Shown here in pieces: positions 692 to 18,219 of a stretch of 64,000 nucleotides of DNA. The notes under the pieces were generated by a model. That model saw nothing but the letters and a program-made list of their open reading frames with translations, was not told the origin of the DNA and ran no database searches. Source of the DNA: Bifidobacterium aesculapii (GTDB lineage Bacteria > Actinomycetota > Actinomycetes > Actinomycetales > Bifidobacteriaceae); NCBI RefSeq assembly GCF_001417815.1, contig NZ_BCFK01000031.1, forward strand, positions 62,001-126,000, read 5' to 3'. Position 1 is the stretch's first letter; every line of letters begins with the position of its first letter. The position numbers and the translations under genes were made by a program.

Positions 692-1342
692 TCACACGCC
701 GCTCCCCTGCCGTTCACGCCGCTTGCGCCGGACCTCAAGGGTTCGCCGCATCCGTTCAGCCGTCAGATCATCGATCGGCCGGCCTGTGGAACGCTTCGCC
801 GGCGAATGCGTCAAATCGACGAAGTCCTCATGTTCCAACGCGTCTTTGATCTGGTGCCACAACGAACCGACCGATACGGCGAATACGGCTTTGCCGCTCT
901 GCAGCAGTTCCAGCATCTGCTCGCTCGTCATGCACTCATGCACCTGCTGACCGTCGCACATGATGGTGATATGTTCAAGCGCCCCCACCGAACGTTGGGT
1001 GAGAAAACTGATTGCGGTGGTCACGTTCTGCAGATTCACTCCGGCATCCAGCAGACGCTTGGACACGGCGAGGATGACGACGTCCTTGAACGAATACAGG
1101 CGTCTGGAACCGGAACCGTGCGAGGGTGTGATCGACGGTTCCAGAATCTGTTTGCGCGCCCAATAGTCGAGCTGACGATAGGTGATGCCCGCGACTTTGG
1201 AGGCGATGGAACCCCGGTAGCCACGGTTCATCTCCTCGTCGTCGGGAGTGGCGAACAACTCCCCTTGCACGGCTTCCTCGTTGAGATCCATACGGTTGCG
1301 CAGAGGAACATGCAGATGAAGCTGGAGTCTTTCCTCATTCAT
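692..1342 (-). CDS. MerR-family transcriptional regulator (Rv1828-like)
   Basis: This 216-residue protein has a MerR-type winged helix-turn-helix at about residues 47-115, containing ITYRQLDYWARKQIL and the wing SGSRRLYSFKDVV. A roughly 100-residue C-terminal region with no metal-binding cysteine cluster follows. It sits directly downstream of the FHA protein, the same neighbourhood as mycobacterial Rv1828 next to garA (Rv1827), so I assign it to that group. Members bind promoter DNA as dimers; the effector of this one is unknown. It is probably co-transcribed with the upstream minus-strand genes. The alternative, HspR, is less likely because no dnaK or dnaJ lies nearby. Confidence 0.85.
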   Translation of the reverse strand: MNEERLQLHLHVPLRNRMDLNEEAVQGELFATPDDEEMNRGYRGSIASKVAGITYRQLDYWARKQILEPSITPSHGSGSRRLYSFKDVVILAVSKRLLDAGVNLQNVTTAISFLTQRSVGALEHITIMCDGQQVHECMTSEQMLELLQSGKAVFAVSVGSLWHQIKDALEHEDFVDLTHSPAKRSTGRPIDDLTAERMRRTLEVRRKRRERQGSGV

Positions 1343-1380
1343 AGCCGCTCCCCTGTCGCCCGCATCACGTCGGCTTCGGT

Positions 1381-1818
1381 TCAGGAGATGACCGCCGACT
1401 TCGTGAAGAACACAAGTCGGAATTTGCCGATCATGATTTCGTCGCCGTTCTTCAGGGTCGCCTGGTCGACACGCTGACGGTTCACATACGTGCCGTTCAG
1501 AGAGCCGGCATCCACGACGGTGAACACTCCCCCGACGCGCCGGAACACGGCATGCGAACGGGAGACCGTGGAATCGTCGAGCAGGATATCTGCACGGGGA
1601 TCGCGCCCCACCGTCACCTCATCCTCATCGAGGAGGTATCGTGAACCGGAGACCGCGCCACGCGTCGAAATCAGCAACGCCGTACCCTCCGAAAGACGGG
1701 CGATGGTGTCGAGATCCTCCGTGGTGAGCGGACGGTCTCCGGTTGCGGTCACGGGAATGGTGATTGCAGGCAGACCGATGATCGTGGTCTCGCCTGCGCT
1801 AGGAATTGGTTCTGTCAT
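1381..1818 (-). CDS. garA: GarA-like FHA-domain signalling protein
   Basis: This 145-residue soluble protein carries a C-terminal FHA domain at about residues 57-135, with the conserved Gly71-Arg72, Ser86-x-Ser88-His89 and Asn108-Gly109-Thr110 that bind phosphothreonine peptides. The N-terminal tail contains Glu10-Thr11-Thr12, matching the ETT motif that PknB and PknG phosphorylate in mycobacterial GarA/OdhI. In those relatives the unphosphorylated protein binds 2-oxoglutarate and glutamate enzymes, and phosphorylation makes the tail dock into its own FHA domain. Which enzymes it would bind here is unknown. It starts six bases after the DUF881 gene. In Mycobacterium gcvH lies between these two genes; it is absent here. 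Confidence 0.88.
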   Translation of the reverse strand: MTEPIPSAGETTIIGLPAITIPVTATGDRPLTTEDLDTIARLSEGTALLISTRGAVSGSRYLLDEDEVTVGRDPRADILLDDSTVSRSHAVFRRVGGVFTVVDAGSLNGTYVNRQRVDQATLKNGDEIMIGKFRLVFFTKSAVIS

Positions 1819-1824
1819 AGTTGC

Positions 1825-2658
1825 CTATTCTACCGTCCTTGCGTACTTATATTGCTTTTCGCCGCGCACGGCCGTGATGACGACATCGTCGGATTGTTCG
1901 ACGGTGACGCGAGAACCGTACATGACCTTAAGTCTTGAGCCGATGCCGCCCGCGATGTTGACGGCGTTCTGGAGGTCGCCCGGGTTGCCGATGGCGCGGA
2001 CCACATACGGCGTGTCGAGCGTGATGCCATCGCATTGCAGCTGACCGTCCTGCCCCTGGGTGATCGACGTGGAGGTGATCACCCTGACGTCTCCTACGGA
2101 GATGACCTCGGCGCCCGCGTTGCGCAGTTCCTCGATGAGAGTGAACATCGTCGCCGCGTCGATGTTCTGCTTCGAGCCTTTGGTGATGCGGATGACCACG
2201 CCCTGGCCTTGCGCGGGAAGTCTGCCGGAGATGATGCCGCTGGTCTCCTCGTTCTGCTTGGCGATCTTCTCCGCCTGGTCGCGCTGGTCCGCCGCCGCTT
2301 TGAGGCTGGTGAGCTGACTGGTCAGCTCGTTCTTGCGCTGCTCGAGATTGGTGGCCTGCGTACTGGTCTCGTTGATGAGGCGAACGAGCTCGTCCTCGCT
2401 CATCGTCTCGTATGTGGACTGTGTGTTGTTGATCTGCGTCATATAGCCGAAACCGAGCAGGGCGCACATGAGCATGACCAGCAGCGATGAGAACAGTTTG
2501 GTCTTCAATCCGCTGCCGGCGAGACCGCGTTTGCCCCTGCGGGAGCCATCCACCTGCGGGAACGATCCGGTCTGCGTGGAGTCGTTGCGTTTCTCGGCGG
2601 CATCCCGGGCCTTCATTTCACCGATGGTGCCGCAGTTCCTTCGATTGCGTCTCGCCAT
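1825..2658 (-). CDS. DUF881 membrane-anchored protein (Rv1825-like)
   Basis: The product (277 residues) has a basic cytoplasmic N-terminus of about 50 residues and a single membrane helix at about 55-73. A likely coiled coil at about 85-135 follows, then a C-terminal extracytoplasmic DUF881 domain. It belongs to a family found with Sbp in actinobacteria and Firmicutes and suspected to act near cell division or the envelope; no biochemical activity is established. The ATG at 2658 has AGAGG upstream, and a downstream ATG (residue 15) is also possible. It follows the Sbp gene by one base, so translation is probably coupled. Confidence 0.85.
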   Translation of the reverse strand: MARRNRRNCGTIGEMKARDAAEKRNDSTQTGSFPQVDGSRRGKRGLAGSGLKTKLFSSLLVMLMCALLGFGYMTQINNTQSTYETMSEDELVRLINETSTQATNLEQRKNELTSQLTSLKAAADQRDQAEKIAKQNEETSGIISGRLPAQGQGVVIRITKGSKQNIDAATMFTLIEELRNAGAEVISVGDVRVITSTSITQGQDGQLQCDGITLDTPYVVRAIGNPGDLQNAVNIAGGIGSRLKVMYGSRVTVEQSDDVVITAVRGEKQYKYARTVE

Positions 2659-2659
2659 G

Positions 2660-2995
2660 TCAGCCTCTGAAGATGAACCTGCGGATCGCGGAGACGTTCG
2701 AGAAGATGCGGATGCCGAGCACCACGATGACGGCCGTCTGCAGCTGCGAACCGACGCCGAGCTGGTTGCCGAGCAGCACCAGGAGGGTGGCGGTCAGAAC
2801 ATTCGCGAAGAAGGAGATGATGAACACGCGGTCGGAGAACCGGCGCTCGAAATAGGCGCGTGCCGCGCCAAGCAGGGCGTCGAGTGCGGCGACGACCATG
2901 ATGGGGAGATAGGGCTGCACCCAGACGGGTATGTCCGGTTGAACGAACACGCCGATCACCACGCCGATGACCAGTCCAAGCACTGCTGCCATCAC
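2660..2995 (-). CDS. sbp: Small basic protein Sbp (DUF1290)
   Basis: This 111-residue protein has a first membrane helix at the extreme N-terminus, a Pro/Val-rich region that may re-enter the membrane, and two further helices centred near residues 35-60 and 65-90. The pattern matches the DUF1290 small basic protein family, which lies near ftsZ in Bacillus and between two DUF881 genes in Actinobacteria, exactly as here. The start overlaps the stop of the upstream DUF881 gene by four bases. The function is unknown; a role with the DUF881 proteins in the envelope is an inference from their constant association. Confidence 0.85.
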   Translation of the reverse strand: MMAAVLGLVIGVVIGVFVQPDIPVWVQPYLPIMVVAALDALLGAARAYFERRFSDRVFIISFFANVLTATLLVLLGNQLGVGSQLQTAVIVVLGIRIFSNVSAIRRFIFRG

Positions 2996-3987
2996 TCCGC
3001 CTTCCTTGCATAGCTGATGTCGCCGACCACGGCCGCTTCCAGTGTAATCGACTTCGATTGCTTCACCTGCAGCGTGATGCCTGCTCGTTTGTAGACATCG
3101 TACAGAGCGCCCAACGTGTCGGGCTCCGCCACCTGCGCGAGCGTACGCCGCTCCCCTATGGCCTCGATGCGATACGGGCTGCCGACGGCGTCAAGACCGA
3201 CGAGAATCGTTCCTCCCGCCGCACGGATGGAGGTCTGCACGCCCAGTCGGTGACCGTTGATCGCGATGGCTTCGGCCCCGCTGCGCCACAACAGGGAGAC
3301 GAGCTGCTGGAGATCGGCATCGGTGACGACACGCAGATGGTCGCCCGCCTTCTCACGCGGCGTCGCCCCTGTCGAGGAGTCGTTGGCCGCAGCGATGGGG
3401 TTGGCGACGGTGAGCGTGATGCCCTCCCCCGTCACTTTCACTTGTCCGCTGACCATCTCGTCGGCACGGACCGTTTCGGACGCTCCGGCAACATCAAGCC
3501 GCTTTGACTGCCGTTCGATGTTCGAACGCAGTGCGGCGACGTCCTTGGTGAGGGAATCCACGTCGTTTCGCGATGTCTCGAGCTGCGAGGCGAGAGACGC
3601 CCTGACCGCTTTGCGCGGATCGGAGTGCAGCTGTTGGACGAACAGGCACCCGAGGAATCCGACCGCGATGCACACGATGAAGCATATGATGCGCATCGTC
3701 CACTTCGTCACCGGGGACTCGCGATGGGTGGACAGGTTCGAATCCAGATAGATGGGGTCGAGCGGACGGTTCGTCAGGTCATCGATGAGCCTGAGCGAAT
3801 CGTCCTGACGAATCCGTCTGCGACGTTCACGTTCATTGGCGGTGACCGCGGTCTGCACCGTGTGATGCGACAGGAGGCCGGTGTACGCTCGCGAAAAGAC
3901 GGATCGTCTTCTGACCGCAGGCTCCTCCTTCCGCTCCTCCACAGGGTAGGATGCCGGCATCCCGTCCGTATCCATACCTGCCGTCAT
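2992..3987 (-). CDS. DUF881 membrane-anchored protein (Rv1823-like)
   Basis: The 331-residue product is the second DUF881 paralogue of the cluster. A long, basic cytoplasmic N-terminus of about 95 residues precedes one membrane helix (about 97-116), a coiled-coil region (about 130-165) and the extracytoplasmic DUF881 domain. That domain contains the WRSGAEAIAINGHRL stretch typical of the family. It overlaps the upstream phosphatidyltransferase gene by four bases (ATGA) and the downstream Sbp gene by four, so the three form a tight operon. Sequence similarity to the 1825-2658 product is limited to the DUF881 core. The function is not established. Confidence 0.85.
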   Translation of the reverse strand: MTAGMDTDGMPASYPVEERKEEPAVRRRSVFSRAYTGLLSHHTVQTAVTANERERRRRIRQDDSLRLIDDLTNRPLDPIYLDSNLSTHRESPVTKWTMRIICFIVCIAVGFLGCLFVQQLHSDPRKAVRASLASQLETSRNDVDSLTKDVAALRSNIERQSKRLDVAGASETVRADEMVSGQVKVTGEGITLTVANPIAAANDSSTGATPREKAGDHLRVVTDADLQQLVSLLWRSGAEAIAINGHRLGVQTSIRAAGGTILVGLDAVGSPYRIEAIGERRTLAQVAEPDTLGALYDVYKRAGITLQVKQSKSITLEAAVVGDISYARKAE

Positions 3988-8580: not shown

Positions 8581-10668
<2,088 letters not shown>

Positions 10669-10784
10669 GGTCCTCCCCTTGTATGTGTAAGTCGACCATG
10701 CGCCACAATAGGACGGTCGCCGTATCTGCGGATACCCGCGTCCTACATTCTGGGCGATTTCGGAGCCTGTAGAATTCCCCGCCT

Positions 10785-12017
10785 TCACTCCCCGCGCAGC
10801 GCCGCGGTCGGCGCGAGCCGCGCGGCCCTCGACGCCGGATAGATGCCGGCGAGCGCGCCGACGAGCACGGCCGCGCCCCATGCGGCGGGCAGCGTCCCCC
10901 AATCCAGCACGGTCGGCTGCCCCGCCCATACCGCGAAGCCGAACACCGTGCCGGCCCCGAGCATCGTACCGGCGAGACCGCCGAATGCGGAGAGCATGGC
11001 CGCTTCGGTGACGAACTGCATGCGGATCGCGCTGGGGGTCGCGCCGAGCGCGCGTCTCAGTCCGATTTCGCCGCGGCGTTCCATCACGGTGACGATCATC
11101 ATGTTGGCGATGCTCATGCCGCCTACGGCCAGTGCGATCGCTCCGATCATCAGCCCCAGCGTGTTGAGGGAGTCGTCGGTGGTGTTGCGTGCTTCGGACA
11201 GGTCGACTGACGCGTTGACGGATACGTTGGCGCCGGTGAGGTTCGCCGCGTGGGCGAGCATGCGTCGCAGCGTTTCGGTGTCACCTGGTCTGGTGCGCAC
11301 GTAGATCGCGCTGATCTGGCCGATCGTTTCGGCCTGGTCCGGGTGGCTCGCCTTCGCCTGTGTCGAGCCGATGATGACCGACGGGTCGAGGTTCTGCGCC
11401 TGCGGTGCCGGGGCGAGGATGCCGACGATCCCGTACCATGCGTCGTCGATGAGGATGCGGTCGCCGACCGTGGTGACGCCGAGTCGGTAGGCGGCCTCGG
11501 AGCCGAGTATCGCCACGGGCAGATGCTGGTTGTGCTCGTCGATGCCGTGCCCCTGCACGACCCTTGCCCCGACGGCGTCCAGCGCGTCCGGCCGCATGAC
11601 CGTCAGCGTCAGGGCGTTGCCGTTGGATTTGGGTACGAACTCGTTCTTGAAGATCCTCACGTTCTCGGGTGCCGTGTCGAACACGCCCACCCGTTCCACC
11701 TGCGGCTGGCGTGCGATGGTTTCGGGCGCGTATGCGGGCAGGGGCACGGGCTGCTGTGCGGCGTCGCGTCCCGGTGACACGACCTGTAGGTTCGCGCCGA
11801 GCGAGTCGAGGCGGGCGAGCAGTGCGGCCTGGTTCGACGCGGCGATGCCGGAGAGTGCCACGTATGCGGCCACGCCGAGCGCGATGCCCAATGCGGCGAG
11901 CACCGTGCGGGACATGCGTCCGGTGGCCCCGATCCATGCCGTGTGCATGAGGTCCGCGAATCGTGTGGTCGGTGGGCGTCCTTTCGGCGGCCGCTCCGTT
12001 CGGGTGGTGACGGTCAT
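10785..12017 (-). CDS. ABC exporter permease, MacB/FtsX type
   Basis: This 410-residue permease has the MacB architecture: one N-terminal membrane helix (about 37-60), a large extracytoplasmic MacB-like domain (about 60-285), then three C-terminal helices of the FtsX domain. The conserved [19 protein letters not shown] lies between helices two and three. With the overlapping ATPase gene (ATGA, 12014-12017) and the adaptor it forms a MacAB-like mechanotransmission exporter. Such systems export peptides, antibiotics or lipoproteins in other bacteria; the cargo here is unknown. It is the last gene of the operon that begins with the two lipoproteins. Confidence 0.9.
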
Positions 12018-12748
12018 GCGCCTCTTCCCTCGTTTCCGTCGTCGTCCGCGTCGTCGTGCCGTGTGTCCGGCGGCAGTTCGGTCACGACGCCGTCCCTCAT
12101 GTGCAGCCGCCTCGGGAAGCGCGCGGCGATGGATGGGTCGTGGGTGACGACCACGAGGCTCGCCCCGTCGTCCGCCGCTCCCAGCAGCAGGTCGATGATC
12201 GCGTGCCCGGTGGCGGTGTCGAGCGCGCCGGTCGGCTCGTCGGCGAAGATCACGTCCGGGTTTTTGGCGAGCGCGCGGGCGATGGCCACGCGCTGTTGTT
12301 CGCCGCCGGAGAGCTGTGGCGGCCGGTGTCGCAGGCGTTCGCCCAGTCCGACCCGTTGCAGGGCGTCGATGGCGCGTGCGCGTCGGGTGTGGTGTGGGAT
12401 CGTCGTGTATTGCAGTCCGGTCGTCACGTTCTCGATCGCGCAGACGGTGGGGATCAGGTGGAACTGCTGGAACACGAAGCCGATGCGTGTCGCGCGCAGG
12501 GCGCTTCGGTGCCGCTCCCCCATGGCCGCGACGTCTTCTCCGTCGTAGCGCAGGGTGCCCGTGGTGGGCATGTCGAGCGTGCCCAAGAGGGACAGGAGCG
12601 TCGATTTGCCGGAGCCGGACGGTCCGACGATCGCGATCCGTTCGCCGTGTTCGATTGCGAGCGATGTGGGGTGCAGGATCTCCAGCGGGCTTCCGTCGCG
12701 GCCCGGATAGCTTTTCGTGGCTTGGTCGAGTTCGAGCAGGGCGGTCAT
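12014..12748 (-). CDS. ABC exporter ATPase, MacB/LolD type
   Basis: This 244-residue ATPase has Walker A GPSGSGKST (42-50), the signature LSGGEQQR, Walker B VIFADEPTGALD, and VVVTHD with the switch histidine. FVFQQFHLIPT and NVTTGLQY are typical of the LolD/MacB/FtsE group. It should power the permease encoded immediately downstream. The gene overlaps the adaptor gene by four bases (ATGA at 12745-12748) and the permease gene by four, so all three are translationally coupled. A long in-frame extension upstream of 12748 is a shadow of the adaptor gene. Confidence 0.93.
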   Translation of the reverse strand: MTALLELDQATKSYPGRDGSPLEILHPTSLAIEHGERIAIVGPSGSGKSTLLSLLGTLDMPTTGTLRYDGEDVAAMGERHRSALRATRIGFVFQQFHLIPTVCAIENVTTGLQYTTIPHHTRRARAIDALQRVGLGERLRHRPPQLSGGEQQRVAIARALAKNPDVIFADEPTGALDTATGHAIIDLLLGAADDGASLVVVTHDPSIAARFPRRLHMRDGVVTELPPDTRHDDADDDGNEGRGA

Positions 12749-13899
12749 GAGACGACCACCTTGTCGCCGGCCTTGAGCCCGTCGGCGCGGGTCAGCTGCA
12801 CCTGCGCGTTCGCGACGAGGCCGAGTTCGACGGGGATGCGTTCGAGCCGCTGACCGCGCACCACGTCGACCGCGTATGTGCTGCCGGCGGAGGCGATGAT
12901 CGCGGTGACGGGCACGATCAGCGTCTCCGCGGTGTTCGTGTTCGTCGTGTTGGGGATGACGAGCTGCACGGAGGTCGCGCCGAAGCTCGCGACCTGCGTC
13001 TGGTCGGGGAAGTCGATGCGCGCCGACGGCGAGGTGACCTGCCCGTCCTTGCCGGTGGACTGGCCGCCCTGGTCGACGGCGGCGAGCGTGGTGTCGATGG
13101 TCGTGTTGTTCGGCAGGATGACCTGTACTGTGTCGCCCGCTTTGAACGTGGCTGCCTGTGTGGCGCTGAGCGTGGCCTCGACGTGCAGCGCGACGCCGGT
13201 GTAGGTGCCGGGGCTCACGTTGGTTTCGCCGAGTTTGGCGGTGACGGTGTTGATGCGGATGGGTGCGGTCGCGGCGAGCGCCACGGATCCGGGTTCGAAG
13301 ACGCCGGTCACCTGGTCGCCTGTGAGCCCGAGGGTTCTGGTCTGCCATTGGCGTATGGCTTCGCGGGTGCGCCAGTCGAAATGCGTGTTGGGGGCGGCTT
13401 TGAAGTAGCCGAGTTCCTGCAGGTTCGTTTCGAGTTGGGTCACGTCGGGCCCGTCGGGCACGTCCACTTGGAGGGTGCGCCAGAACGGGCGTGTGCCGTG
13501 GAACAGCGGCACGGTCACGCCGTCCATCTCGTATACCTGTTGGCCGGTGGCGATTTCGGCGCCGGGTGTGGGCAGTTGGGTGATGGTGCCGGTCGCCGGT
13601 TGGAATTCGGATGGTTCGTCGTATTGGAGGGTGCCGCCGAGCCGGGTTTCGGCGTTGAGGACGCCTGTAGTGACCGGTTGGGTGCGCAACGTGCTCACGT
13701 CGACGGCAATGCCGGATGAGGCGTGCGTGCCCGTCGCCGTCGCCTTTCCCGTACGGTCGGGGCCGGTCATGTCGGCGATTAGTGTCCATGGTCGGGTGAT
13801 CGCGCACACGGCGATGAGTCCCGCGACCGTGACGCATGCGGCGATCGTGGCGATGATCCTGCGCACCTTGCCGATCCGTCTTGTTTCCGTCCGTGTCAT
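12745..13899 (-). CDS. Exporter adaptor protein with peptidoglycan-binding domain
   Basis: The 384-residue product has one N-terminal membrane helix (about 14-34), then an extracytoplasmic part. It holds a lipoyl-like segment (about 95-130), a PG_binding_1 domain (about 150-200, with DVTQLETNLQELGYF) and a beta-barrel region to the C-terminus. This is the organisation of actinobacterial MacA/HlyD-like adaptors. It probably links the MacB-type permease to the cell wall in a bacterium with no outer membrane. AGGAGGTG lies six bases before the ATG at 13899, one of the strongest ribosome binding sites in the window. The stop overlaps the ATPase start. Confidence 0.87.
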   Translation of the reverse strand: MTRTETRRIGKVRRIIATIAACVTVAGLIAVCAITRPWTLIADMTGPDRTGKATATGTHASSGIAVDVSTLRTQPVTTGVLNAETRLGGTLQYDEPSEFQPATGTITQLPTPGAEIATGQQVYEMDGVTVPLFHGTRPFWRTLQVDVPDGPDVTQLETNLQELGYFKAAPNTHFDWRTREAIRQWQTRTLGLTGDQVTGVFEPGSVALAATAPIRINTVTAKLGETNVSPGTYTGVALHVEATLSATQAATFKAGDTVQVILPNNTTIDTTLAAVDQGGQSTGKDGQVTSPSARIDFPDQTQVASFGATSVQLVIPNTTNTNTAETLIVPVTAIIASAGSTYAVDVVRGQRLERIPVELGLVANAQVQLTRADGLKAGDKVVVS

Positions 13900-13967: not shown

Positions 13968-14828
13968 TCATCGTGCGGCCGTCGGGCTGCCGATGCCGTA
14001 TTGCGTGGTCGTCCAATCGGCGGCGCCGTCCGCCTCGTCCATCACCTTCATGTAGTCGTAGCCGAACTCCTCGGGTGTGCCGTCGAATCCGAAGCTGATG
14101 CGCGCGTCCCCGACCGGGCATTCCTTGAAGAATCGTCTGAGCTCGTCGGCCGTCACGGTCCGTGGGATGAGAATCGTGGTCGGCTCGTCGCCGCTCGGGT
14201 CCGCGACCCAGCTGAAGCCTTTGCCGCGCGCCTTCCTCGCGAAGTCGAGCGCGGCGCGTTTGTCCTCCTCGCTGTATGTGGGTTGCCCCGAGGAGAGGTC
14301 CTGCGCGGGTTGGGTGAAGTTCGGGTGTTTCGCCTCGCAGTCCGCGTAGTCGGCCTGTTTCGACTCGTATGGGGTGCCGGCGAGCGCGGTGGAGTCCTTG
14401 AAGGCGACCCATACGGTGCCGTAGTCGAGCGCGGTGAACATGGCGTTGGCGTAGAGCTGTTGGGTTGCGCTGTCGGTGCCTATGCTCGTGCCGGTGTCGT
14501 CGGTGGTGACGGGGTTGCCGGTGCGGTCGATCATGCGCAGTTCGGCCATGTTCCTGACGGTGGGGGCTTTGGCTTTGCCGGATGCGTCGGGTGCGCCGGG
14601 GCCGACAGCGGTTCTCGCGTCGAGGCCTTTGGATGTGAGGCAGGCGACGAATTTGCGTGCGGTTTCGTCGACGGGGAGGTTGCTGGTGGTGTCGGTGGCG
14701 TTGGTGTCGGTGCCGTCGCCGGTGGTCGTGGTGTCGGATGCCGGGCCGGCGCAGGCGGCGAGCGTGAGGAGGAGGGTGGCGGATATGATGGCCGCCGTGC
14801 TTGCGGTGAGGAGTCGGTTGCGGGTCAT
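13968..14828 (-). CDS. Lipoprotein of the exporter operon (paralogue B)
   Basis: This 286-residue protein has a lipoprotein signal peptide ending in LTLAAC (lipid-modified Cys26), a Thr/Asp-rich linker, and a folded domain I cannot assign to a named family. It is clearly a paralogue of the product encoded at 14970-15827. Both share ARKFVACLTSKGLDAR-like and FSWVADPSG-like segments, a YADCE-type motif and similar length. I start at 14828 because AAGGAG lies seven bases upstream; a GTG codon directly before it is also possible. Being secreted and coupled to a MacAB-like exporter and a two-component system, it may be a sensor partner, a substrate chaperone or a ligand-binding protein (inference). 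Confidence 0.85.
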   Translation of the reverse strand: MTRNRLLTASTAAIISATLLLTLAACAGPASDTTTTGDGTDTNATDTTSNLPVDETARKFVACLTSKGLDARTAVGPGAPDASGKAKAPTVRNMAELRMIDRTGNPVTTDDTGTSIGTDSATQQLYANAMFTALDYGTVWVAFKDSTALAGTPYESKQADYADCEAKHPNFTQPAQDLSSGQPTYSEEDKRAALDFARKARGKGFSWVADPSGDEPTTILIPRTVTADELRRFFKECPVGDARISFGFDGTPEEFGYDYMKVMDEADGAADWTTTQYGIGSPTAAR

Positions 14829-14930
14829 CACGAGTCTCCTTGGGTGGTGTCCAGTGTCCGTTGGGACGGGTGGTCGGGTTGTCGCGTCCCATTCAACCGG
14901 GTGCTTCGTCGCGTGTCGGTGTGGGTCGGG

Positions 14931-14947
14931 TTTACCTTCGGCTTACC
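14931..14947 (-). promoter_or_regulatory. 11-bp-spaced direct repeat upstream of lipoprotein B
   Basis: On the minus strand this reads GGTAAG-N5-GGTAAA, half-sites 11 bases apart, typical of OmpR-family response-regulator sites. Downstream come CACACCGACACG after seven bases and AATGGGA a further 18 bases on, the same arrangement as upstream of lipoprotein A. It lies about 100 bases before the start codon at 14828. Confidence 0.6.
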
Positions 14948-14969
14948 TGCGTCGGATGGCCGATCGGGC

Positions 14970-15827
14970 TCAGCCGATCCGGGACAGCTCCTGCTGCACC
15001 GAGTGGATGTCGTATGGGTAGTCGCCGTGCCACGAGTAGGTGACCGGCGCGTCTCCGGGGTCGCATTCCCTCAGGAACCGGCGCACGTCGTTCTCCGGCA
15101 CGTAGGCGGGGATCACGATGCGTAAGGGGTGCTCTCCGCTCGGATCCGCCACCCAGTCGAATCCCTTGGCCCGTGCGGCGCGTGCGAAGGCCAATACCGC
15201 GTTCCGGTCCGTCTGGGAGGCGTTCTCGTCGGCGGTGAGGCGTTGCACGCCTTGCGTGAAATCGGGGTCGGCCCGTTCGCAGGCCGCATAGTCCTGCTGC
15301 TTCGCCGCGTACGGGGATCCGGCCAGATCGGCGGAGTCGCGTGCGATGATGTACGGGAAGTCGTCGCCGGTAAGGCCGTTGCTGAGGATGCCCGTCGACA
15401 TGATGTTCGGGTACAGTGCCGGGTCCGTGGTCCAGTCCTGGGTGGTGACGCCGTCGTCGCCGGGGATGAGCCTGGGCTGTTTGGGATTGCCGGCGGCGTC
15501 GATTTCGAGCAGTGCGACCTGATCGTTGCGTTCGCCCACGATGCGCGCGTCGAACCCTTTGGACACGAGGCAGGCGGCGAACCTGCGCACGATCGTACTC
15601 GCCGGATAGCCGGTCTCTGCGGTACAGTCTGCGCCGGCCGGGGCGGCCCCGCAATCGTCGGAGCCGTCCGACGCCATGGCGTCTCCGCCGACGGCATGCG
15701 AATGCGATGATGCCGTGCCGGTCGAATCGGCGTCGCCGCCGTAGCCCGCGCATGCGGCGAGCGCCAGCAGCATCGCCGACGCCATGGCCGCGGCAAGCAG
15801 CCGGATGATGATGGAATGGCTCTTCAT
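14970..15827 (-). CDS. Lipoprotein of the exporter operon (paralogue A)
   Basis: This 285-residue secreted lipoprotein has a signal peptide with lipobox LALAAC (Cys26), a Gly/Ala/Asp-rich linker, and the same unnamed domain as its neighbour at 13968-14828. Shared features include RRFAACLVSKGFDAR, a DYAACE motif, a FARAARAKGFDWVADPSG stretch and PVTYSW near the end. Several cysteines recur at matching places and may form disulfides. The ATG at 15827 has AGGAGG upstream, whereas the longer frame starts within the promoter. It is the first gene of the minus-strand operon and is divergent from the response regulator gene. Confidence 0.85.
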   Translation of the reverse strand: MKSHSIIIRLLAAAMASAMLLALAACAGYGGDADSTGTASSHSHAVGGDAMASDGSDDCGAAPAGADCTAETGYPASTIVRRFAACLVSKGFDARIVGERNDQVALLEIDAAGNPKQPRLIPGDDGVTTQDWTTDPALYPNIMSTGILSNGLTGDDFPYIIARDSADLAGSPYAAKQQDYAACERADPDFTQGVQRLTADENASQTDRNAVLAFARAARAKGFDWVADPSGEHPLRIVIPAYVPENDVRRFLRECDPGDAPVTYSWHGDYPYDIHSVQQELSRIG

Positions 15828-15890: not shown

Positions 15891-15907
15891 CTTACCCTCG
15901 CCTTACC
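15891..15907. promoter_or_regulatory. 11-bp-spaced direct repeat between lipoprotein A and the response regulator
   Basis: The plus strand shows CTTACC at 15891-15896 and again at 15902-15907 (minus strand GGTAAG-N5-GGTAAG). CACACCGATACG and AATGGGA follow toward lipoprotein A at exactly the spacings seen in front of lipoprotein B. It lies 64 bases from the lipoprotein start and 85 from the response regulator start, so it could serve both divergent promoters. The likely binder is the response regulator encoded at 15992 (inference). Confidence 0.65.
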
Positions 15908-15991: not shown

Positions 15992-16663
15992 ATGCGAATA
16001 CTGATCGTCGAGGACGACCGCGATCTGGCGGCCGCATTGGATGACGCGCTGCGCTACGAAGGGTACGCGACCGACGTGGCCATGACGGGAGTCGAGGCGC
16101 TCAAGGCACTGGCCGACACGGACGTCGACATCGTCCTGCTCGACCGCGACCTGCCCGTCCTGTCCGGAGACGCCGTGATGGCGACGATCGCCGCGAACCG
16201 CATCCCCGTCGCCGTGATCATGCTCACCGCCGCGGCCGACGTCAGCGACAGGGTCAGCGGGCTCGACTTGGGCGCGGACGACTACCTGACCAAACCGTTC
16301 GCCTACCCGGAGCTCCTCGCGCGCATCCGCGCCCTGCAGCGCCGCGCCGGCAAGGGCGCCGCCACGGCCGCCGTGCTCACCCGCGGCGACCTGACGCTCG
16401 ACACCACGCGCCGGCTCGTGTTCCGCGACCACGGACGCACGCTCGTCAAACTCACCCCCAAGGAGTACGGCGTGCTCCTGGAGCTCATGCGCGCCGACGG
16501 CGGCTACGTGAGCGTGGACGAACTCCACCGGAGCGTGTGGGACGCCGACCCGGACGTCGAGGCCGCCGACGTGGTCAAGACCACCATGTACTCGCTGCGA
16601 CGCAAACTGGAGGACCGCGACCTGATCGTCTCCACACGCGGGGAAGGATACCGGCTCGCATGA
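15992..16663 (+). CDS. Two-component response regulator, OmpR family
   Basis: This 223-residue regulator has an N-terminal receiver domain with acidic residues Asp8 and Asp9, the phosphoacceptor Asp51 in VLLDRDLP, Thr79 and Lys101. A C-terminal winged-helix DNA-binding domain (about 130-223) ends in STRGEGYRLA. I choose the ATG at 15992 because the receiver begins MRILIVEDD and a GAGGAG stretch is upstream. The stop overlaps the kinase start by four bases (ATGA). It is divergent from the lipoprotein/exporter operon, and the 11-bp direct repeats in front of both lipoprotein genes are the expected type of target site. Confidence 0.95.
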   Translation: MRILIVEDDRDLAAALDDALRYEGYATDVAMTGVEALKALADTDVDIVLLDRDLPVLSGDAVMATIAANRIPVAVIMLTAAADVSDRVSGLDLGADDYLTKPFAYPELLARIRALQRRAGKGAATAAVLTRGDLTLDTTRRLVFRDHGRTLVKLTPKEYGVLLELMRADGGYVSVDELHRSVWDADPDVEAADVVKTTMYSLRRKLEDRDLIVSTRGEGYRLA

Positions 16664-18219
16664 CCCGCAACCGAGACCAGGAACATAACCGGCCGCCGGC
16701 CAAGGCACAGACACGGATCCGAGGCCGTGTCGCCCGCCGCCTGCGCCGGGTCGCCGACCGGCTCACCCCGCGCACGTTCCGCGCCAAGCTCACCATCGCG
16801 ATCAGCGTCGTGTTCCTCATCGCCCTCGGATCGGCGGCCATCGTGCAGACCGTCATCATCAACGGCATGTTCTCCTACGCGATGACCGTCTCCTACGAGA
16901 ACGGACAGGACGGCGGACAGACCGGACAGCCGAACGGCGGCGACAATACCGGGAAGGCCCCGTCGGACGACGACTTCCTGTCCGTCGAGGGCTGGTCCGT
17001 GGACCCCGACCCACGGACATGGCAGGAAACGCACCAGCAACCGTACATGGACGCCCCGCAATTCCTCGGCAGCGCCAGCAACGGCAAAGGGGCCGGCTCC
17101 GCCACCGGCCGGACCAACGGCCAACCCTACCGCGTCGAATGGGGCGACGACGGATCGTTCACCATCACCACGCCATACGGGATCTCCATATGGAACCAGG
17201 ACACCATAGCCAACGGACTGCGCATCAGCGCCGCCGTCATCTTCGTGTTCTTCGGCGCCACCAGCATCCTCGTCATCTGGATCGTCACCTCACGAATGTC
17301 CCGCAGGCTCAAATCCATCAGCGAGCAGACGGCCACGCTCGACCCGAACGACCTCGGCACGCGCATCGACACGGACGGGACGGGACGTTCACGCCCAGGC
17401 GACGAGATCACCAGCCTCGGCGACTCCATCAACGGCATGCTCGACCGCATCCAGGCCGCCTCCGAAGCCGAGCGACGGTTCGTGTCCAACGCGTCGCACG
17501 AACTGCGCACCCCCATCGCCGCCGTCGAGACGAACCTCGACGCGCCCCTGGCACAGGGGAGGTTCCCCGAGGACGTCGCACCATCCGTCCGCCGGGCGCT
17601 CGCCGCCAACCGGCGCGGCGCCGAACTCGTCGACGCGCTGCTCACCCTCTCACGCATCCAAAGCGGCGCATACGGCAAACTCGCGCCGGCCGCGACTGGA
17701 ACGGGGAACGGGACGCACGACGCAACGGGCGCATCGGCAGCGGGGACGACGGACCTCGCCGCATGCGTGGACGACGCGCTCGCCGACATGGATCACGGCA
17801 TCCGCGAGCGCCGCATCGACGTGACGTTCGACGCCGCCGATCACGTCACGGCGAAGGCCGATTCCGCGCTGATGCGTCTCGCGGTCGGCAATCTCATCCG
17901 CAACGCCGTCGTGCACAACACCGACGGCGGGTCGATCACGGCATCCATCGACGCGACCGGCGACGGCGAGGTGACGCTCACCGTCACGAACACCACCGAC
18001 GAGCGGCTGCCGGACAATCTCGACGACCTCGTCCAGCCGTTCCACCGCGGCGTGAACTCGCGCATCAGCGCCGTCTCCGGCGTGGGACTCGGCCTGTCCA
18101 TCGCCGACGCCGCATGCACCGCGATGGGCGCGCGGCTGCGCCTGTCTAAGACGTCGTCGGAGCCGCGACCTGGAACCGACGTCTTCAACGCCGGGATAAC
18201 CGGACTGTCCGCATCCTGA
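16660..18219 (+). CDS. Sensor histidine kinase
   Basis: The 519-residue protein has a basic cytoplasmic N-terminus, membrane helices at about 44-68 and 188-209, and an extracytoplasmic sensor region of about 120 residues between them, rich in Gly, Asp and Asn. A HAMP linker and dimerisation domain follow, with His280 in SNASHELRTP, and then the ATPase domain with N-box LIRNAVVHN and G-box GVGLGLSIAD. The usual DxGxG box is replaced by NTTDERLP, as in some VanS-like kinases. It is translationally coupled to the response regulator. The signal is unknown; the neighbours suggest an envelope or antimicrobial stress. Confidence 0.93.
   Translation: MTRNRDQEHNRPPAKAQTRIRGRVARRLRRVADRLTPRTFRAKLTIAISVVFLIALGSAAIVQTVIINGMFSYAMTVSYENGQDGGQTGQPNGGDNTGKAPSDDDFLSVEGWSVDPDPRTWQETHQQPYMDAPQFLGSASNGKGAGSATGRTNGQPYRVEWGDDGSFTITTPYGISIWNQDTIANGLRISAAVIFVFFGATSILVIWIVTSRMSRRLKSISEQTATLDPNDLGTRIDTDGTGRSRPGDEITSLGDSINGMLDRIQAASEAERRFVSNASHELRTPIAAVETNLDAPLAQGRFPEDVAPSVRRALAANRRGAELVDALLTLSRIQSGAYGKLAPAATGTGNGTHDATGASAAGTTDLAACVDDALADMDHGIRERRIDVTFDAADHVTAKADSALMRLAVGNLIRNAVVHNTDGGSITASIDATGDGEVTLTVTNTTDERLPDNLDDLVQPFHRGVNSRISAVSGVGLGLSIADAACTAMGARLRLSKTSSEPRPGTDVFNAGITGLSAS

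Follow-up and report, generated by a model that had tools for sequence, protein, structure and literature searches.

The window analyzed here is a stretch of 64,000 nucleotides from Bifidobacterium aesculapii (contig NZ_BCFK01000031.1, positions 62,001 to 126,000 of the forward strand), and the subject of this report is a pair of neighboring genes within it that encode two secreted lipoproteins, A and B. The analysis revealed that the family to which both proteins are assigned by profile comparison is a close to obligate companion of one type of MacAB-like exporter across Actinobacteria.

Lipoproteins A and B and the genes around them

The initial annotation of the window had described two paralogous secreted lipoproteins at positions 13968–15827, each with a lipobox cysteine at residue 26. 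Both open reading frames (ORFs) lie where it had placed them, and BLASTP aligned the two proteins at 38% identity over 224 columns (E 2e-42, far beyond chance). The cysteine position stands for B; in A, it is residue 27 counted from the GTG start and residue 26 only if counted from the ATG one codon further on. The segments thought to be common to the pair were recovered as KGLDAR/KGFDAR, FSWVADPSG/FDWVADPSG and DYADCE/DYAACE. A search of the B. aesculapii genome with lipoprotein B matched only the places of A and B at E ≤ 1. The surroundings of the two genes also agree with that description: the adaptor, ATPase and permease genes of an exporter follow 3' on the same strand, so that the lipoproteins head the operon, and the adjoining sensor kinase, a divergent HAMP kinase, has a large extracytoplasmic loop. 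The genes are as follows:

14970..15827, minus strand: lipoprotein B, by profile comparison the Bifidobacterium class B member of a two-repeat family; ATG start, 285 residues, lipobox Cys26
13968..14831, minus strand: lipoprotein A, class A member, immediately 5' of the adaptor gene; GTG start, 287 residues, lipobox Cys27
12745..13899, minus strand: HlyD/MacA-like adaptor with a PG_binding_1 domain (library matches, adaptor profile)
12014..12748, minus strand: ABC transporter ATPase of the exporter (ABC_tran, E 1.3e-34)
10785..12017, minus strand: MacB/FtsX-type permease (MacB_PCD PF12704, E 7.1e-21; FtsX PF02687, E 6.3e-16)
15992..16663, plus strand: OmpR-type response regulator, encoded divergently to lipoprotein B and probably binding the tandem sites given below
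16660..18219, plus strand: HAMP/HisKA/HATPase sensor kinase with a type I extracytoplasmic loop of ~114 residues (library matches)

The end of lipoprotein A is separated from the start of the adaptor by 68 bases. With a permease that carries MacB_PCD and FtsX, an ATPase and an adaptor, the window has the make-up of a MacAB-like exporter. The adaptor profile matched the putative MacA 4dk1 (E 3.6e-9); the adaptor alone scored far below the RND_mfp cut-off (29 vs 94.9 bits).

No domain could be assigned to the lipoproteins in the initial annotation, and this still holds. Neither protein reaches any Pfam or NCBIfam cut-off, and the profile searches returned no confident match to a known family of unrelated function. 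An alignment of 24 Bifidobacterium members (A1) gave no Pfam or NCBIfam row better than E 0.005, while a search of PDB sequences returned none at E ≤ 5 for B and a best E of 0.58 for the A1 profile. When distant members of the family (five, then 24) were compared with Pfam, NCBIfam and PDB, no convincing family emerged; among the 24, no NCBIfam row reached E ≤ 0.01, and Pfam contributed just isolated weak rows (E3_binding, COX17, Toxin_36 and CHCH; E 0.0003–0.007), each in one or two members. The viral contigs searched contained no relative of lipoprotein B. Literature searches of an open-licence library, which leaves most subscription papers outside, listed no paper that names this lipoprotein family in its title or abstract.

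AlphaFold2 modeling gave a mean predicted local distance difference test (pLDDT) score of 79 for A, with 147 of 287 residues at 90 or above and a predicted template modeling (pTM) score of 0.58. The respective values for B were 76, 112 of 285 and 0.53. Both models consist of a low-confidence linker followed by two small alpha/beta domains whose mutual placement is unsure.

A two-repeat lipoprotein family and its exporter

Profile comparisons place the window proteins on a divergent Bifidobacterium branch of a wider family of actinobacterial lipoproteins, in which the motif F-x-x-C-M-R-x-x-G...D-P...A-x-x-x-C occurs twice in tandem. When the 24-member Bifidobacterium profile was run against 296 class genomes, it recovered two bridging proteins (L036, E 8.1e-17; L037, E 3.5e-11, the latter adjoining a regulator gene) and a set of shorter proteins in which FAQCMREHGVDMxDP...AxxAC repeats stand in tandem; the other rows mostly matched the signal-peptide end of the profile alone. 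A profile of five of these shorter proteins detected the family in 73 of 246 class genomes, representing 38 of 104 genera, at E ≤ 1e-3 and in 62 genomes at E ≤ 3.2e-9, and reached back to window A (E 3.6e-13) and window B (E 9.5e-10). A two-repeat profile of 35 distant members, built without the bridges, matched all 40 Bifidobacterium rows at E-values, computed for a set of 40, from 1.9e-9 to 8e-4 (window B 6.7e-6, window A 3.2e-5; best reversed control 0.35). The profile of repeat 2 only was too weak (window B 0.0058, window A 0.23). Direct comparison of the Bifidobacterium and distant profiles by hhalign gave a probability of 90.6% and P 1.3e-6 in the correct register, against 0.47 for the reversed profile.

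In the distant members, repeats 1 and 2 are homologous to each other (hhalign 99.6%, E 1e-23; 35 of 38 distant rows were kept on splitting). The two halves of the Bifidobacterium proteins each align with their distant counterparts (P 4e-5 and 9.8e-6), but a direct comparison of one half with the other gives a probability of 1% and no longer detects the repeat. Four cysteines, two per repeat, are invariant in 24 of 24 rows of the distant alignment A6, from which 4 of the 28 prepared rows were left out; two cysteines per repeat are a common trait of the family and no criterion for membership. The window proteins keep the repeat 1 pair (C64/C165, C86/C183), and since the models place these residues in the first and last helices of the repeat, a disulfide within repeat 1 is plausible. 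The first cysteine of repeat 2 is replaced in both window proteins and still present in the B. leontopitheci members, and long insertions separate the conserved blocks of repeat 1 in the Bifidobacterium proteins. At E ≤ 1e-6, the A6 profile found the family in 18 of 198 phylum genomes, 16 of these outside the class, and did not list B. aesculapii itself, which shows the extent to which the Bifidobacterium branch has drifted.

To describe the genomic context, 40 distant regions were used, one locus per genome, picked across the score range down to E 3.2e-9 and not at random. Within 5 kb of the lipoprotein gene, an adaptor was found in 39 regions, an ATPase in 39, a permease in 38, a kinase in 37 and a regulator in 36. 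Wherever found, the exporter genes share the strand of the lipoprotein gene (39/39, 39/39 and 38/38, respectively), and the lipoprotein precedes the adaptor in 38 of 39 regions.

The pairing was then counted from both sides in the 246 class genomes, including that of B. aesculapii. A lipoprotein match lies within 3 kb of 82 of the 84 adaptor matches at E ≤ 2.1e-70, and for 81 of them it is immediately upstream (<700 bases) on the same strand. Weaker adaptor matches have one within 3 kb in 2 of 25 cases, although a divergent lipoprotein might escape detection among these, as it did in genome G311. Conversely, 87 of 90 lipoprotein matches (E ≤ 3.2e-9) have an adaptor match within 3 kb. These counts omit the 12 weakest lipoprotein rows, adaptor second pieces, one contig-end piece and rows below G244. 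As for the exceptions, in G311 a divergent two-repeat lipoprotein sits directly upstream of the adaptor, and in G233 the adaptor starts at base 100 of its contig. Two of the three lipoproteins that lack an adaptor are at contig ends (G233, and G127, whose contig ends at the lipoprotein); the third, in G158, is a shortened lipoprotein beside a two-component system, with no exporter in 19.9 kb. By these counts, the pairing is nearly obligatory, and it involves the exporter more than the kinase. Of the roles considered in the initial annotation, that of an exporter partner is thus strongly supported by this class-wide gene association.

Within the same taxonomic family, matches were found in 10 of 121 sampled genomes, every one of the genus Bifidobacterium. 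A scan of named genomes yielded 20 loci from 19 Bifidobacterium species, with B. rousetti nearest to the window. The adaptor, ATPase and permease adjoin the lipoprotein gene or genes in 19 of these loci, and the regulator does so in 17; one locus, L068, ends at a contig end, with no kinase visible there. A lipobox-like cysteine is present in 22 of 22 relatives drawn from the genus. The same 25 of 112 genus genomes carry both the adaptor and strong lipoprotein matches, and four further genomes gave weak lipoprotein rows only. In one of these four, genome G095 (L176, 6662–7087), an ORF of 142 residues resembles repeat 1, has lost the cysteines and has no exporter in the 14 kb read; it looks like a remnant of repeat 1.

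A tree of 40 rows resolved class B (9 rows, support 100/100), class C (9 rows, 100/99) and class A (16 rows, 87/75, with a 14-row core at 100/98); it omits five ORFs in which the motif was not detected, three of which were restored for the tandem-site counts below. The named Bifidobacterium loci hold one to three copies per exporter locus in shuffled order, with all three in a single locus in B. leontopitheci. Genome G115 has a fourth copy at a separate place (L034, 10068–11027), in a stretch that showed neither exporter nor two-component genes.

These data bear on a purely structural role, in which the lipoprotein would seat or seal the adaptor ring on the membrane or wall of a cell without an outer membrane and recognize no substrate. 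The near one-to-one pairing with this adaptor subfamily, not with weaker adaptor matches, and the fixed position immediately upstream of the adaptor both speak for such a scaffold. The variable copy number and shuffled gene order in Bifidobacterium do not fit it well, and in the 17 named loci with class A, lipoprotein A is more variable (49–91% identity to the window) than the permease (69–94%), as would suit a recognition part. Because paralogs are gained and lost, recognition is favored over pure scaffolding, and we regard the scaffold as an unlikely explanation.

Several side observations concern the same loci. In B. rousetti (L055, 9875–10879), lipoproteins B, C and A stand in a row, while the window is without C and aligns to both flanks of the missing gene with a single junction at 14959. 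The class C gene of B. callitrichos DSM 23973 (L068, ~1017–3144) is broken by an insertion of two ORFs, which we take to be serine-recombinase-like and TnpB-like, of an IS607-like element. A solitary family gene occurs in B. jacchi (L073, 8731–9630), where exporter and two-component genes were likewise not detected in the stretch. Immediately 3' of the exporter operon of the window, one long ORF (8581–10929) looks like a fusion of two genes, presumably with TrpC- and TrpB-like sequences; the order of exporter operon and Trp-like ORF is shared with B. rousetti, B. santillanense and B. saguinibicoloris.

Tandem sites and the two-component system

A tandem site, GGTAAGNCGARGGTAA, with an 11-base period is found upstream of both lipoprotein genes:

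15892..15907, minus strand: tandem site GGTAAGGCGAGGGTAA, candidate operator, ~80 bases upstream of B in the intergenic region common with the divergent regulator
14932..14947, minus strand: tandem site GGTAAGCCGAAGGTAA, ~116 bases upstream of A; sole other copy found in the genome

At a tolerance of two mismatches, the 2.69-Mb genome contains two sites, both exact and both upstream of these genes, and the reversed pattern gives five. For the 20 named Bifidobacterium loci, a site consensus was set after the window site had been found, again allowing up to two mismatches. Of the 31 sites detected, 28 precede a lipoprotein gene, and such a site is present at 28 of the 41 genes. Ten shuffles gave 1.7 sites on average, none of them upstream of a lipoprotein gene. 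Eight of the 13 site-less genes come second or third among consecutive lipoprotein genes at a site-bearing locus, as if read from an earlier promoter. Two of the sites not upstream of lipoprotein genes are in L061 and L070; the other is taken up below. An upstream site is present in 17 of 17 loci with the regulator and in none of the three without it. The tandem site is thus placed as the very probable operator of this OmpR-type regulator, and lipoprotein genes A and B probably form two transcription units, each with its own upstream copy. GGTAA-N6-GGTAA is absent from the 40 distant regions, which suggests that the site is peculiar to Bifidobacterium. A generic scan for promoters and terminators was uninformative.

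The two-component system is usually adjacent to the lipoprotein and exporter genes, on either strand, and is sometimes absent. In B. leontopitheci and B. amazonense, the exporter and lipoprotein occur with no adjacent two-component system found, in a search able to detect only relatives of at least 38% identity; the same was observed in the distant regions L136, L137 and L144, and in L140 the system is present beyond the exporter. Across the genus, two modules of first transmembrane segment plus loop are joined to one kinase core, the second type having a loop 12–15% and a core 62–66% identical to those of the window. The loop of this second type contains two cysteines, and 9 of 10 of its species carry class C lipoproteins ending in CxxxC. 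The module is confined to the B. reuteri/saguini clade, so the swap of sensors counts as one event. Class C is missing from B. olomucense, a member of that clade, and in B. rousetti a class C-like copy accompanies the other kinase type.

The initial annotation had also considered that the proteins could be kinase accessories. In this alternative, modeled on CseA, the lipoproteins adjoin the kinase and tune or gate its signal, so that a substrate report from them is needed to turn on the exporter. The frequency of kinase and regulator genes in the distant regions and of the regulator beside the gene in the named loci is consistent with it, as are the association of the second sensor module with CxxxC-tailed class C proteins and the shortened lipoprotein of G158 with its two-component system and no exporter. 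PMC9739842 proposes that two lipoproteins, CseA and AfsQ3, act on their own kinases. However, the lipoprotein gene shares the kinase strand in 9 of 37 distant regions, compared with its constant agreement with the adaptor strand, and is divergent from the kinase in the window. It also stays with the exporter in the five loci named above where no two-component system was found adjacent, while the sensor swap is one event and B. olomucense and B. rousetti fit poorly. As the gene runs with the exporter and not with the kinase, the accessory role is the less supported, and we consider it improbable.

Proposed role and relation to known systems

Together, our results lead us to propose, as an evenly balanced judgment, that the lipoproteins are regulator-controlled, membrane-anchored extracytoplasmic substrate-capture subunits of a MacAB-like exporter of Actinobacteria. 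The data show family membership, the near-obligate pairing with the adaptor and the common, exclusive upstream sites; from these and from precedent we infer that the regulator binds the sites and that the lipoproteins touch the pump and capture a substrate, as well as the nature of that substrate. The mature lipoprotein would consist of two tandem alpha/beta repeats that a flexible linker connects to the lipobox cysteine, the point of membrane attachment. The HAMP kinase would sense envelope stress or a toxic compound, upon which the regulator would bind the tandem GGTAAG sites and turn on lipoprotein B and the lipoprotein A–adaptor–ATPase–permease operon. The lipoproteins would then catch the compound on the outward-facing side of the membrane and hand it to the adaptor and permease, which would push it into or past the cell wall, where the peptidoglycan-binding domain of the adaptor would hold on. 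Extra paralogs (one to three per exporter locus) may widen or change the range of compounds. An immunity-like binder, the third role suggested in the initial annotation, is compatible with this proposal as the way in which an exporter partner would work.

Several points weigh against this proposal. A gene can be operon-obligate as a scaffold or sensor without touching substrate. For both models, Foldseek found no solved structure at E ≤ 0.001, and the best VIA Z was 4.2. B. amazonense, with no regulator adjacent, carries one site with two mismatches next to the adaptor gene (L074, 7121). Finally, the proteins are acidic (median net charge −13 over 40 Bifidobacterium rows), but other extracytoplasmic parts encoded here are alike, and 7 of 35 distant members are not acidic; acidity is therefore no marker of a cationic-peptide binder, and charge was rejected as such a mark. 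The fold rows for LarE, Atg10, the ArgR C-terminal domain and EscJ (Foldseek/VIA, Z ≤ 4.2) were rejected as background. The lack of a fold match indicates neither a new fold nor a function.

It could also be argued that the lipoproteins are themselves cargo of the exporter, taken off the membrane in the way the MacB relative LolCDE releases lipoproteins. A monoderm cell has no outer membrane as a delivery target, which weighs against this explanation; moreover, the permease matches MacB_PCD, the operon has a peptidoglycan-binding adaptor, as efflux pumps do, and a regulated, multi-copy layout beside a stress-type two-component system would fit defence better. The permease is weakly LolC/E-like (TIGR02212, 40.7 bits vs a cut-off of 362), LolCDE is noted as such a transporter with another partner in the accessible text of PMC5768738, and the Aat system is described as displaying a lipoprotein on the cell surface in that of PMC7943197. 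Weighing these points, we find export of the lipoproteins themselves very unlikely.

Returning to substrate capture, a broader and more tentative extension may be considered. The exporters could represent a distinct actinobacterial class of MacAB-like pumps, whose obligate fourth part is an exchangeable, compound-recognizing surface lipoprotein; paralog turnover and replacement of the kinase sensor module might then re-aim the pump core. The pairing gives a family without a Pfam or NCBIfam model a testable role, and MacAB-like pumps of cells without an outer membrane gain a probable missing part. With one regulator, two promoters and one pump, the exclusive two-site regulon is an easy test system. 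The findings may also be relevant to the survival of gut bifidobacteria and soil actinomycetes exposed to envelope-active compounds.

Both the exporter type and the logic of lipoprotein, exporter and sensor are already known. Within the libraries and literature searched, two elements appear to be new: the lipoprotein family as a near-obligate fourth exporter gene across Actinobacteria, and the exclusive two-site regulon in Bifidobacterium. A comparable locus was found in Streptomyces clavuligerus. Its protein WP_230864297.1, annotated as 'hypothetical protein', was matched in tblastn by the distant member L110 (42% identity across 76% of the query). As in the window, it is followed by a peptidoglycan-binding-domain protein, an ATPase and a permease, with a divergent regulator and kinase 5'. 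The S. clavuligerus protein has the shorter canonical form, whereas the Bifidobacterium proteins have long insertions in repeat 1. The S. clavuligerus members listed from the plasmid records searched bear the label 'hypothetical protein' or have no listed gene.

Lipoproteins linked to two-component systems are established in Actinobacteria. CseA of Streptomyces is encoded in an operon with its two-component system. AfsQ3 is likewise in an operon with its own system, and the accessible part of PMC9739842 treats both lipoproteins as linked to such systems. The window family is set apart from them by its gene arrangement, being encoded with the exporter and with the kinase mostly on the opposite strand.

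Among exporters, Spr0693-0694-0695 of the monoderm S. pneumoniae likewise brings together an adaptor, a separate ATPase and a MacB-type permease; in the part of PMC5768738 available, this MacAB-like pump is modeled as a tunnel towards peptidoglycan, and its knockout lowers the minimum inhibitory concentration of LL-37. The window adaptor differs in having a peptidoglycan-binding domain, and the window operon starts with a lipoprotein, a partner that does not appear in that part of the source. The LanI–LanFEG systems also pair a surface lipoprotein with an ABC exporter and a two-component system. According to the portion of PMC4828448 available, the lipoprotein NisI and the transporter NisFEG act cooperatively, beside a two-component system. 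In contrast to NisFEG, the window exporter is of the MacB/FtsX type with an adaptor, and neither the PDB sequence search nor the listed fold matches included a solved LanI protein (NisI, SpaI or MlbQ). By analogy, the closest working model for the window would be NisI–NisFEG, controlled by a two-component system and grafted onto a MacAB-like pump.

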